A stretch of DNA of 64,000 nucleotides from Affinundibacterium baiyunense (lineage in GTDB: Bacteria; Pseudomonadota; Gammaproteobacteria; Burkholderiales; Burkholderiaceae_D): positions 1 to 64,000 of the forward strand of contig NZ_JAGSPM010000004.1 of NCBI RefSeq assembly GCF_018139645.1, read 5' to 3'. Below the pieces are notes generated by a model. That model had not been told where the DNA came from. It did no database searches and worked only from the letters and a program-made list of their open reading frames with translations. The position numbers and the translations under genes were made by a program. Shown in pieces: positions 42,954-46,450 of this stretch. Within the stretch, counting starts at the first letter, position 1. Each line of letters opens with the position of its first letter.

Positions 42954-43021
42954 ATTTTGATTTCTATCGAGAAAGATGCAACTTGTATTTTAGTTTTAGC
43001 TTATGCAAACCCGATATTTTT

Positions 43022-43846
43022 TCAAGAGCGCTGATCCGCTGGGCCAACCACCTCTCGATATGCATGCCAAGTGGCATGCCCAATAATCGGCATCGCAATA
43101 ATAAATCCCAGATTCCACGTCATAAATCCTACTACGACAAAACCGACAATCGTTAAGCCCCAAATCATCGTTAGAGGTACGTTCACAAATAATGCGACGA
43201 TACTGATGATCATCGCAGTAATCGCATCAGTATCTCGGTCTAACATCAAAGGAATCGATACCCAACTAATCGCAAATACAATGCTCGCAAAAATAAAACC
43301 AATACAGGCATACACCACCAAAAATTCAAGATTCTCTAAGGAGAATAATTTCGCCAAGAATCCTTCCATCGTTGGCATGCCCTTGTTGTAGAACAAGGCA
43401 AAAATAACTAAGGACGCACGTGCCCACACCATCATAATCACGGCTAGCACCACGGCAAAAGTACCAATATTGCTCCAACGACCGCGCATAGAAAATGCGC
43501 TGCCCAACATGCCAGAGCGCAAATTCTCAATCCGACGGCTAACATCATACAAACCTAAGGCCAACAGCGGACCTACCAATAAAAAACCACAAGTTAATGC
43601 CGACAAATACTGCGGCGCATTGGCTAAAGTGAGTTTTAAAATACCGCCCATGACGGCAAAGCAAACACCATAAAAGAGGCCCGCCATCGGTTCTGCACGA
43701 AAATCTTGCCAGCCTAAATAAAGCCAATGAAATGCGCGAAAAGCACCCAAACGCGCAACAGGCGGGAACGCACTCTTCTGATCAATTACCATACGAATAT
43801 CGGGCGCTGCGCTGTCACCATCGCGCCCGCTTGTTGAATCACTCAT
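43022..43846 (-). CDS. DUF2189 domain-containing membrane protein
   Basis: The 274-residue protein has a short polar N terminus, then about six hydrophobic segments. FRAFHWLYLGWQDFRAEPMAG and the C-terminal PIIGHATWHAYREVV are typical of the DUF2189 family, whose members are of unknown function. It is converging with the tricorn-like gene. Upstream lies a 600-base gap with a MITE-like element. Confidence 0.88.
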   Translation of the reverse strand: MSDSTSGRDGDSAAPDIRMVIDQKSAFPPVARLGAFRAFHWLYLGWQDFRAEPMAGLFYGVCFAVMGGILKLTLANAPQYLSALTCGFLLVGPLLALGLYDVSRRIENLRSGMLGSAFSMRGRWSNIGTFAVVLAVIMMVWARASLVIFALFYNKGMPTMEGFLAKLFSLENLEFLVVYACIGFIFASIVFAISWVSIPLMLDRDTDAITAMIISIVALFVNVPLTMIWGLTIVGFVVVGFMTWNLGFIIAMPIIGHATWHAYREVVGPADQRS

Positions 43847-44454
43847 AATGTCTCCAGATTTTTTAATTTTTTTGATGTGGTTTGCTAGGGCCTGTTAACA
43901 TTTAAATTGGGAGTGCGAATGTGGAAAAACGTGCACAGGGCTAGGCGTCAAGGCGCGCGGCAGTGCGAGCACTGTAAGCGACTTGCAACAACGCCATGTG
44001 CCCGTTTTTCCCATTCCCGAAGGGTTCAAGCCAAAACGCGCGATGGACAGCGTTGTAGCTCTTGCCGAGGCACCTGCCTCGGCGGCGAACTACGCCTTGC
44101 CATCCCACCTTTTGGCTTGAACGCATCTCCCGATTTAAACGTTAACAGGCCCTAGTCCTTGACCAAAATCAAATCACTAGCTGTCATGCTAAGCGAGTTT
44201 ATATTCATGTCGCAAGCGCCACAGTCGGTTAACATTCGAAATGAACAACACTTTGTAGAAAATTTTGGTGAAATTTCACCCAAACTAGTAGTCCAAAGTT
44301 ATTTACGGCAAATTTCATGCGGTTCGCGTTATAAAGTAACACTTACGTCGCAGAAATTTTCGAATTGTCGGCAGCTCATCTACACTTCTCGATATCGAGC
44401 GAATTCTAATTTTTAACAAGACGCTACTGCACAATTCAACTTTGTTTCTCTCAA
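43847..44454. other. Gene-free gap containing a MITE-like element
   Basis: The gap of 608 bases separates the DUF2189 gene and the LytS-type kinase gene. Its main content is the element at 43888-44152. The remaining 300 bases (44156-44454) are A/T-rich and show no gene; they presumably hold the kinase promoter. Confidence 0.6.
43888..44152. mobile_element. 265-bp MITE-like element with 20-bp terminal inverted repeats
   Basis: The left end GGGCCTGTTAACATTTAAAT (43888-43907) and the right end ATTTAAACGTTAACAGGCCC (44133-44152) are inverted repeats with one mismatch. TA flanks both sides (43886-43887 and 44153-44154), inside CTAG, as if the element had inserted in CTAG with duplication of TA. 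The interior holds a GCCGAGG/CCTCGGC hairpin (about 44074-44091). An open frame crossing it (43907-44155) lacks protein-family features. A target like this fits IS5-family (IS427-group) elements, but the parent is not identified. Confidence 0.7.
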
Positions 44455-45573
44455 ATGAAAAATCTCTTGTCTTTATCTACTATTCGTCATTTTCTCAACG
44501 AACACAAACGCTCGCTGATTTGGCTAAGCTGCTTTAACACCGGTGTCGCGCTATTCATTACCTTGGTATTACCGACCAAGCAAAGCTTTGCAGTGAATTG
44601 GGTGTTCTCGATGTTAATTGGCTATAGCATCAACATCGTCATCGTATTAACACGGTGGATCATTTGGCGTGACAAAAAGCCACATCGCATCGCCTTTTTA
44701 TTGATGTGTATGGCGGCAGCACCGATCGGTTATTTCATTGGTGGATCGATCGGTATGGTCTTTTATGGTCTGAAAATGCCGAGCTTTGTAACCGTGATGA
44801 AAAATGGTGAAGGCATCTTAGTCATTATGAGTATCTTCATCAGCTTATTCGGTGGCGTATTTTTTTGGAACCAATCAAAACTGGCAGAACTAGAAGCAGA
44901 ACAAGAAAAAGAAAAAGCGCGCATAGCAGCAATCGAACGTCAAGCGATGCAAGCGCAATTGCAGCTACTGCAAGCACAAATCGAACCCCACATGTTATTC
45001 AACACGCTCGCCAACTTACAAGGTTTGATCGCCATCGATACACAACGCGCACAACACATGTTGGAGCAGCTGATTCGTTATTTACGCGCGAGTTTAAATT
45101 CGTCAAGAATCGAACAAACAACGCTACAACATGAGTTTGATTTACTCGAAGCATATTTAGAATTGCTGGCGATACGTATGGGAAAGCGCTTGCAATATCA
45201 AACCAATTTACCAGAGCAGCTAAGGAGACAAGCGATCGCGCCCATGCTATTACAGCCAATCGTTGAGAACGCGATTAAGCACGGCGTAGAGCCTAAAATG
45301 GAAGGTGGCAGCATCCATGTTTCTGCCGAGACTGACAGCGAATTCCTGCACATTTATGTGATTGATACAGGTATGGGACTACCTGTAGATTATGATGAAA
45401 ATAAACCAGCACCACAATCGCAACATCCAAATCAAAGCCATGTCGGTAACGCGAATGTGCGTGAACGTCTGCTAGCGCTGTATGGCCCGCGAGCGTCGTT
45501 GACGCTCAGTGCGAATCAACCACAAGGCGTAATCGCTCATTTATGCATTCCCTTATCGACGCAAGTGCATTAA
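44455..45573 (+). CDS. Sensor histidine kinase, LytS/YehU type
   Basis: The 372-residue protein has four hydrophobic segments in its first 145 residues, a short coiled coil (about 147-170), then the His_kinase domain with phospho-accepting H179 in QAQIEPHMLFNTLANLQ and a HATPase domain with NAIKHGVEPKMEGG. This matches the LytS/AlgZ/YehU family. It is followed 67 bases later by a LytTR response regulator, its evident partner. Confidence 0.93.
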   Translation: MKNLLSLSTIRHFLNEHKRSLIWLSCFNTGVALFITLVLPTKQSFAVNWVFSMLIGYSINIVIVLTRWIIWRDKKPHRIAFLLMCMAAAPIGYFIGGSIGMVFYGLKMPSFVTVMKNGEGILVIMSIFISLFGGVFFWNQSKLAELEAEQEKEKARIAAIERQAMQAQLQLLQAQIEPHMLFNTLANLQGLIAIDTQRAQHMLEQLIRYLRASLNSSRIEQTTLQHEFDLLEAYLELLAIRMGKRLQYQTNLPEQLRRQAIAPMLLQPIVENAIKHGVEPKMEGGSIHVSAETDSEFLHIYVIDTGMGLPVDYDENKPAPQSQHPNQSHVGNANVRERLLALYGPRASLTLSANQPQGVIAHLCIPLSTQVH

Positions 45574-45640: not shown

Positions 45641-46450
45641 ATGACTCAACTACGCGCACTCATCGCTGAAGACGAAAATATTCTAGCCTTAACTTTACAA
45701 AAAACACTAGAACGCTTATGGCCTGAACTGGAGATTTGCGGCATCGCAGAAAACGGCGTTGAAGCGGTGAATTTAGCGTTTAAGCATTTTCCTGAAATCG
45801 TCTTTCTAGATATAAAAATGCCCGGCAAAACTGGGCTCGAAGTTGCCGAAGAATTGACGGAAGAATGGCCGAGTGACAGGCCTTTCCCGATGATCGTTTT
45901 CGTCACGGCGTATGATGAATTTGCGCTGCAGGCATTCGAGCACGAAGCCTGCGACTACGTGTTAAAGCCCATCAGTGACGTTCGCTTTGCAAAGACAGTA
46001 CAGCGACTACAAAATAAAATCTCGGATCGCTCTGCGCCATCCAATGAGTTAGAAAAAATGATCGCACAGCTAAGCAAATTAAGTCCTGCACTTTTAGGAA
46101 ATCCGCAAGCATCTGCATCGAATGAACGACTCAGCATGATACGTGCGGCGGTTGGCAATCAAATTCGCATGATCCCAATTGAGGACGTGCTGTTTTTTGA
46201 GGCGACCGACAAATACATCAATGTTGTGACAGCGGAACAAGGAAGTCTAATTCGGATGAGCTTACGCGAATTACTGCCGCAACTTGATCCGCAATTATTC
46301 TGGCAAATTCACCGCGGCTACATCATCAATACGCGCTACTTACAATATGCGACGCGCGATGAAACTGGAAAGCTGACAGTGCAACTCAAAGGTAGTCAAC
46401 AAAAACTACAAGTAAGTCGCGTCTATGCGCACTTATTTAAGCAAATGTAG
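45641..46450 (+). CDS. LytTR-family response regulator
   Basis: The 269-residue protein has an N-terminal receiver (phosphorylated Asp57 in EIVFLDIKMPGKTG, conserved Lys in DYVLKPISD) and a C-terminal LytTR DNA-binding domain (about 165-268) with EDVLFFEATDKYINVV and FWQIHRGYIINTRYL. It should act with the upstream LytS-type kinase. Target genes are not evident, but the ElaA-type acetyltransferase follows by 24 bases and may be in the same transcript. Confidence 0.93.
   Translation: MTQLRALIAEDENILALTLQKTLERLWPELEICGIAENGVEAVNLAFKHFPEIVFLDIKMPGKTGLEVAEELTEEWPSDRPFPMIVFVTAYDEFALQAFEHEACDYVLKPISDVRFAKTVQRLQNKISDRSAPSNELEKMIAQLSKLSPALLGNPQASASNERLSMIRAAVGNQIRMIPIEDVLFFEATDKYINVVTAEQGSLIRMSLRELLPQLDPQLFWQIHRGYIINTRYLQYATRDETGKLTVQLKGSQQKLQVSRVYAHLFKQM

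Follow-up and report, generated by a model that had tools for sequence, protein, structure and literature searches.

MITE-like elements of about 270 bp share a two-hairpin interior beneath unlike ends

Introduction

What is the short, gene-free stretch bounded by inverted repeats that lies upstream of a putative two-component system in Affinundibacterium baiyunense, and is anything in it kept besides its ends? The locus belongs to a 64,000-bp window, the whole stretch of DNA analysed here (assembly GCF_018139645.1, contig NZ_JAGSPM010000004.1, positions 1 to 64,000). An initial annotation made from the letters alone had proposed a 265-bp MITE-like element in a CTAG target, moved by an IS5-family transposase and possibly carrying a promoter or terminator. 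We examined the element at its locus, its copies and partner insertion sequences (IS), and the conservation and range of its interior.

Results

A 265-bp element in a CTAG target

Direct reading of the sequence confirmed a CTAG-targeted element of 265 bp, the body of which begins with GGG at 43888 and ends with CCC at 44152, with CTAG at both edges (Table 1). At the 5' edge, C 43885 and the TA precede a body that opens with GGGCCTGTTAAC; at the 3' edge, the body closes with GTTAACAGGCCC and is followed by the second TA and G 44155. The 20-bp terminal repeats match at 19 of 20 positions, as had been claimed, and TA does lie on both sides inside CTAG, such that the ends and their CTAG flanks form an inverted repeat of 29 nt that is 93% complementary. 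Allowing at most two mismatches, GGGCCTGTTAAC occurs within the window at the two ends of the element only. The pattern alone is not rare (2.6 chance matches are expected in the window at two mismatches), unlike two exact inverted copies of it 265 bp apart, which are rare.

Table 1. Features of the element and of the neighbouring open reading frames (ORFs)
Feature	Position	Strand	Basis
ORF, hydrophobic	43022-43846	-	named from translation, no family search
TA flank left (target CTAG)	43886-43887	.	sequence read
Left terminal inverted repeat GGGCCTGTTAACATTTAAATTGGGAG	43888-43913	.	inverted-repeat search
Hairpin A, arms 43923-43956 and 43978-44011	43915-44015	+	inverted repeats, fold, homologue covariation
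Hairpin A loop-1 letters	CTAGGCG 43941-43947; GCAACAACGCC 43985-43995		
Central mini-hairpin CCCGAAGGG	44016-44024	.	sequence read; invariant pairs among homologues
Hairpin B, inverted homologue of A	44022-44127	-	inverted repeats, alignment, model R1
Hairpin B loop letters	GACAGCGTTG 44046-44055; CTTG 44061-44064; CGCCTTGCC 44093-44101; tip hairpin 44064-44083		
Right terminal inverted repeat	44127-44152	.	inverted-repeat search
TA flank right	44153-44154	.	sequence read
ORF, histidine-kinase-like	44455-45573	+	named from translation, no family search
ORF, response-regulator-like	45641-46450	+	named from translation, no family search

The absence of a gene inside the element was upheld: its only ORF, of 82 aa with a TTG start, has no Pfam match, and a coding reading of it was dropped given that blank and because its conservation is accounted for by stem covariation. 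The GCCGAGG hairpin that had been described as a strong feature of the interior is present, but it is merely the tip of a larger hairpin. A tRNA search over 43000-45000 returned none.

The element sits in a divergent intergenic region, 41 bp upstream of the start codon of ORF 43022-43846, in agreement with its proposed placement between a membrane-protein gene and a two-component system, although both are named from translations only. The suggestion that it carries a promoter or terminator was unsupported, as pattern counts showed no excess within 43600-44500: one promoter-like pattern, straddling the right end of the element, was found with 1.0 expected, and two terminator-like patterns, neither inside the element, with 1.3 expected.

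Copies and sites within the genus

Had there been no further copies, the initial annotation would have been refuted; a genome search found them in the element's own and in related genomes. The second copy in the same genome, on contig 79, has a longer tip in hairpin A. Matches occurred in 24 of the 60 genomes searched, own included, all in the window's genus; several of the 24 have many matches, and some match only part of the interior. The exact 22-base end pattern was present in 25 stretches of the genome collection, all from Undibacterium, a genus of Burkholderiales that NCBI places in the Betaproteobacteria.

In one genome (G002) this site is likewise occupied and the flanks are 95-96% identical, from which we infer that the insertion probably predates the split of the two genomes. 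The flanks joined without the element gave contiguous matches in two others (G031 and G008, 71-72%). Both relatives lack the element there, but their TA/CTAG is not preserved. Of 86 copies inspected individually (see below), 33 obey a TA|G rule at each end and 32 at a single end. A copy with another end type (L056, G024:C11:93533-93800) lies about 0.6 kb from a match to ORF 43022-43846, apparently 3' of the matching gene.

Partner insertion sequences of the IS5 family

Absence of an IS with the same ends would also have spoken against the annotation, and two such IS were found, L108 in G035 and L082 in G061. L108, from the same genus, measures 833 bp (837 bp including the TA flanks), and its ends, GGGGCTGTTAACATTTA and GGGTCTGTTAACATTTAA, are close to those of the window element: positions 43886-43905 match one of them at 95% over 20 bp, while beyond the ends only chance-level matches were seen. 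L082 measures 855 bp including its TA flanks; it opens with GGGCCTGTTGACATATT and encodes its transposase in two overlapping frames (DUF4096 and DDE_Tnp_1). These frames match NCBIfam NF033580 'IS5 family transposase' and Pfam DUF4096/DDE_Tnp_1, which substantiates the proposed IS5-family link, mobilisation itself being inferred; L108 was assigned as IS5-type by blastp to L082. Two overlapping frames and TA flanks would also fit the IS427 subgroup named in the initial annotation, a label that stays putative.

In blastn comparisons with three IS the ends match and elsewhere there are only short chance-level matches, so that the interior is not an internal deletion of these IS, an origin that is not required of all MITEs. 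Several other criteria for a MITE are fulfilled, the element being short and without a transposase gene, having terminal inverted repeats and IS-shared ends, and occupying multiple sites.

In G003, G032 and G027 there are copies in which both hairpins and the CCCGAAGGG linker recur between wholly different ends, TA-GAACTCATTTCATAAATA. No IS with GAACTCATTTCA ends was seen in 20 regions around mostly unpaired end matches; one was found later, via PF13340. This DUF4096 IS (L340, in G003) measures 839 bp including its TA flanks, its ends match the GAACTCATTTCA-type copies there, and its transposase frames share 31-37% identity with the L108 and L082 frames. Because the same hairpins occur with L340-type and with L108-type ends, one kind of interior appears to ride different IS5-family members. 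IS partners were identified for these three end types only, and their activity has not been shown. The window's own genome has no match to a piece of the L082 transposase and none to PF13340; unless some other enzyme can move it, the window copy is thus probably stranded.

The interior is a pair of inverted, homologous hairpins

The initial annotation described the interior as gene-free with a strong hairpin, which missed both its strong structural conservation and its membership of a far wider family. Together with a few flanking bases (43884-44157), the element gave fold z scores of -12.7 and -13.1 on the two strands, and none of 200 dinucleotide shuffles folded as well. Folded as RNA, either strand gives a single closed structure consisting of the end stem, hairpin A, the CCCGAAGGG mini-hairpin and hairpin B; the underlying inverted repeats span 34 nt at 74% in hairpin A and 28 nt at 82% in hairpin B.

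The search model, R1, was built on the B hairpins of 43 Undibacterium copies (alignment A1, in which 43 of 55 matches were used). Covariation was then scored in alignments A2 and A3, which hold 48 copies of 260-290 bp, one per genome, aligned without structure. In the B half, 92.7% of pairs are standard and the covariation score is 0.594 versus 0.164 for shuffled alignments and at most 0.125 for slid controls. Conservation of this half is partly circular, since R1 matches are found by their likeness to it; the A half, which was not used in searching, gave 92.3% paired and a score of 0.576 versus 0.164 shuffled and at most 0.102 slid. Both structures came from the same alignments and are therefore favoured over the slid controls. 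In the mini-hairpin, none of the 47 distinct rows of A3 departs from the two C-G pairs counted.

Some of the best-conserved letters lie outside the main stems: GCGTTG, CTTG and CGCCTTG in hairpin B, with the inverted counterparts AGGCG, CAAG and GCAAC in hairpin A. In seven genomes (G063, G171, G1147, G971, G049, G497 and G744) R1 also matches hairpin A on the opposite strand, overlapping the B match at the linker, which indicates that the element is made of a single hairpin module present twice, the copies facing opposite ways on either side of CCCnnnGGG. The letters of the internal loops are fixed, while the stems covary freely.

The hairpin tips are hypervariable (L083, L087, L008) and may contain additional nested hairpins set in a frame that recurs (such as GGAAAG..CTTCGTTGCGTCAG..CGAAACC), giving copies of about 350-440 bp. 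By eye, the interior of hairpin A in L233 looks replaced by unrelated sequence, with the ends and hairpin B kept.

The build extends beyond the order

R1 matched 29 of 39 genomes in a draw from the genus, with up to 50 matches in one genome, and 104 of 399 genomes in a draw from the order, representing 55 of 158 genera. In the class draw it matched 67 of 369 genomes, 65 of them outside the order, and in the phylum draw 38 of 398: the window's own, one of the same family, six of the same order, 12 of the same class and 18 of other classes, 13 of these 18 falling in one family. Order and class are here the search tool's own groups. E-values were rough, the wider searches were more strictly filtered with about ten candidates scored per genome, and most matches remain uninspected. 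Six R1 copies of equal score (90.5 bits) in one genome (G216) suggest recent spread there.

Of the queries searched against plasmids, three gave no match and a fourth one short match, and two further queries matched records of Azotobacter, Halomonas and P. aeruginosa; one query against phages gave no match. No gene is listed under the example on an Azotobacter chroococcum plasmid, nor under the one on a Halomonas replicon, but the latter record is nearly unannotated, so that the absence says little.

As R1 was built without the ends, hairpin A or the total length, these features serve as independent checks. We fetched 100 regions, 80 from the order search and 20 from the genus search; 98 have some outer repeat, 90 have one at a score of at least 15, and 86 also have the linker at the expected place. 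Most of these 86 copies (71, in 46 genomes) are from outside Undibacterium. Their length is 260-290 bp in 76 of the 86, with a median of 270. The ordered motif AGGCG..CAAG..AAC was found in the A half of 30 of the 86 against a mean of 0.64 in 50 dinucleotide-shuffle sets, and AGGCG alone in 58 of the 86 versus 24.1 in shuffles; the exact ordered motif is thus confined to about a third of the copies.

Outside the order we inspected 28 different copies (L289-L299, L314-L318, L355-L363 and L365-L367; L364 coincides with L318, and L319 with L260 of the order set). An enclosing repeat with a score of at least 13 was present in 25 of the 28, all but L295, L356 and L366. These 25 measure 252-277 bp, and in 23 of them a CCCnnnGGG-type linker lies no more than 20 bases from the middle. 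The same build, with most copies near 270 bp, is thus found in Burkholderiales, in other orders of the tool's class and in some further classes.

The ends fall into unlike clusters while the interior persists

We compared 108 ends, from the 86 copies and 22 out-of-order loci (L319 is among them, so one place is counted twice). Single linkage at 72% sorted them into 24 clusters, of which 15 are singletons and the largest has 58 members; 99.9% of shuffled comparisons were at or below about 62.5%. Pairs such as L229/L235, L208/L247 and L012/L020 have interiors 0.77-0.86 identical, where shuffled letters reach at most 0.64, and ends only 0.54 alike. Across the set, interior identity climbs with end similarity, from a median of 0.66 for ends less than 0.5 alike to 0.91 for ends more than 0.9 alike, suggesting that an interior usually descends with its ends and that replacement is only occasional. 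Copies with unlike ends have a median interior identity of 0.65-0.66, slightly more than the 0.56-0.59 of shuffled letters (four pairs); by this comparison, what they share is structure and loop letters, not overall sequence. Several top rows of this comparison, those with L273, were left out, as they represent one end type mis-measured through an offset.

No general RNA signature on the present reading

Either strand of the inverted design carries the same pair of hairpins, so wobble pairs have to be counted module by module. Reading each hairpin inward from its end, we counted 65 G-T versus 25 A-C in the order set (p 3e-5). Of the 65 G-T wobbles, 29 lie at columns 13-17, beside loop 1, leaving 36 versus 24 elsewhere, and the Undibacterium set gave 15 versus 14. 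We read this as one strand-polar wobble near loop 1 and no general RNA signature.

Apart from a riboswitch overlap, an Rfam search of 30 loci found no family at gathering score inside an element. The exception is a cobalamin riboswitch at L317 1334-1496 (40.1 bits, above gathering), which overlaps the outer 23 nt of the element starting at 1474. A weak full-length match of the DUF3268 RNA (RF02966) to L225 411-508 (30.0 bits, E 0.0095) was taken as chance: the gathering score of this family is 65.3, far higher, and on re-search it was listed neither for L225 nor for 14 other sources. Integron attC sites carry end boxes of the form RYYYAAC / GTTRRRY. These are unmet here, the hairpin bases being GCGa...CCC and GGGTT...AACGC (consensus by eye), and this candidate was rejected.

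Discussion

Repeated copies with shared ends, a structured interior and its range are matters of observation. In our judgement the element is likely a MITE-like non-autonomous transposon, moved by the IS5 family, with a selected fold, ends swapped across TA-inserting transposases and a role inferred at the level of DNA. Its mode of movement is most likely ordinary; what is conserved in it is unusual. An IS5-family transposase made elsewhere would cut at the ends and insert the element at YTAR sites, although transposition has not been observed. The fold, under selection, would be the element's lasting identity, and the ends would change to suit whichever TA-inserting transposase is present. 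In single-stranded or supercoiled DNA the fold, taking the shape of a hairpin or cruciform, could help bring the ends together or recruit a host protein. That it acts more likely as DNA than as RNA is our least certain inference; it is drawn because the strand-specific tolerance of G-U pairs that an RNA should show is not seen throughout, and the action of the fold is unproven. More tentatively, and with slightly less than even confidence, we propose that the inverted hairpin pair is the conserved unit of an ancient class of mobile elements, read as a folded strand by an unknown, widely conserved factor, while the ends change. No factor binding the fold is known.

If the ends alone mattered, the interior would be neutral filler, palindromic by chance. 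Such an ordinary MITE would have ends matching IS5-family elements, as here, and bacteria are known to harbour short copies of such a kind (PMC10969869); we nevertheless hold it very improbable, as architecture, length and loop letters of the interior persist across orders under unlike ends, and several pairs of copies have interiors more alike than their ends. Template switching turns imperfect palindromes into perfect ones, and as a mutational process could keep stems matched without selection. The two ends of one copy do look, by eye, more alike than ends of different copies, but the process would also erase the conserved unpaired letters, and their persistence makes this account improbable.

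A structured RNA made from the element (a regulatory RNA, an RNase III target or an RNA-binding decoy) might instead be what selection keeps. The strong fold in both strands, the covarying stems and the wobble bias of one set (65 to 25) would all suit it; the G-U excess is not general, however, vanishing in the Undibacterium set and shrinking outside columns 13-17, no Rfam family was found inside elements at the 30 loci beyond the riboswitch overlap, and promoter-like patterns are not in excess, which leaves this possible but doubtful. Domestication at this locus as a promoter, terminator or insulator between divergent genes would accord with the short distance to the start of ORF 43022-43846 and with retention in the near relative G002. 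Against it stand the lack of any excess of promoter or terminator patterns, the copies at many other places (whose neighbours were not compared) and the two relatives without the element at the site, and we give it little credence. We thus retain the MITE-like element with a selected fold as the preferred reading.

Several described repeats resemble the element in part, as far as the accessible portions of the sources tell. RUP of S. pneumoniae, from which it was described, is 107 bp with IS630-Spn1 ends and a TA target (PMC2229807); it too is short and gene-free, with IS-shared inverted ends, many copies and a stable fold, but our element differs in a two-hairpin interior that is common to many taxa and end types. 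The CIR of Caulobacter, about 110 bp with exposed GANTC sites, likewise has two hairpin arms joined by a linker and is conserved between species of a class (PMC2229807, in part). It is set apart there from repeats with pairing ends, whereas the ends of our element also pair, enclosing the arms; whether the sequences are related is open. REP sequences, associated with RAYT transposases, are also palindromic units, in alternating orientations in BIMEs, but of 20-40 bp (PMC2817692 and PMC3733652, in part), compared with 270 bp and IS5-type ends at TA. QMITE2 of Coxiella has ends of 23-29 bp, a core of 113-145 bp and a stable predicted fold (PMC10969869); it differs in its direct repeats of 7-9 bp, not TA, and the portion of that paper available mentions no two-arm core common to families.

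We found no recognisable description of the family in Rfam or in the literature, as far as the parts of PMC10969869, PMC3852290 and PMC2229807 at hand go; subscription papers and ISfinder were mostly not covered, and the family may already have a name. As a rule a MITE is defined by its ends, the inside being treated as leftover. Here the shape of the inside is conserved over many lineages of a phylum and the ends fall in unlike clusters, suggesting a selected function of the fold and pointing to repeats of about 270 bp, present in large numbers, that we could not match to a described family. The covariance model obtained here offers a means of annotating the family and testing its function.

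Side forms of the family

Ten loci in two genomes (L037-L040 and L042-L047, in G001 and G012; e.g., L044 4103-4155) hold palindromes of about 46-63 bp, made of two family ends with almost nothing between; these constitute a second, smaller non-autonomous form. An ancestral autonomous element with a hairpin module at each end was considered and rejected, as the two regions with R1 pairs in the right orientation 1-3 kb apart do not fit it: by eye, the second of two copies in L348 seems shortened, and L349 pairs a full copy with a single-hairpin one (two of seven paired regions were viewed in this way). The single-hairpin version, at about 870-1010 of L349, appears by eye to have its own short inverted ends. 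In L348, the two copies, at about 830-1110 and 2290-2490, have TTAACCCGGCAACA-type ends and lie around a stretch of about 1.2 kb.
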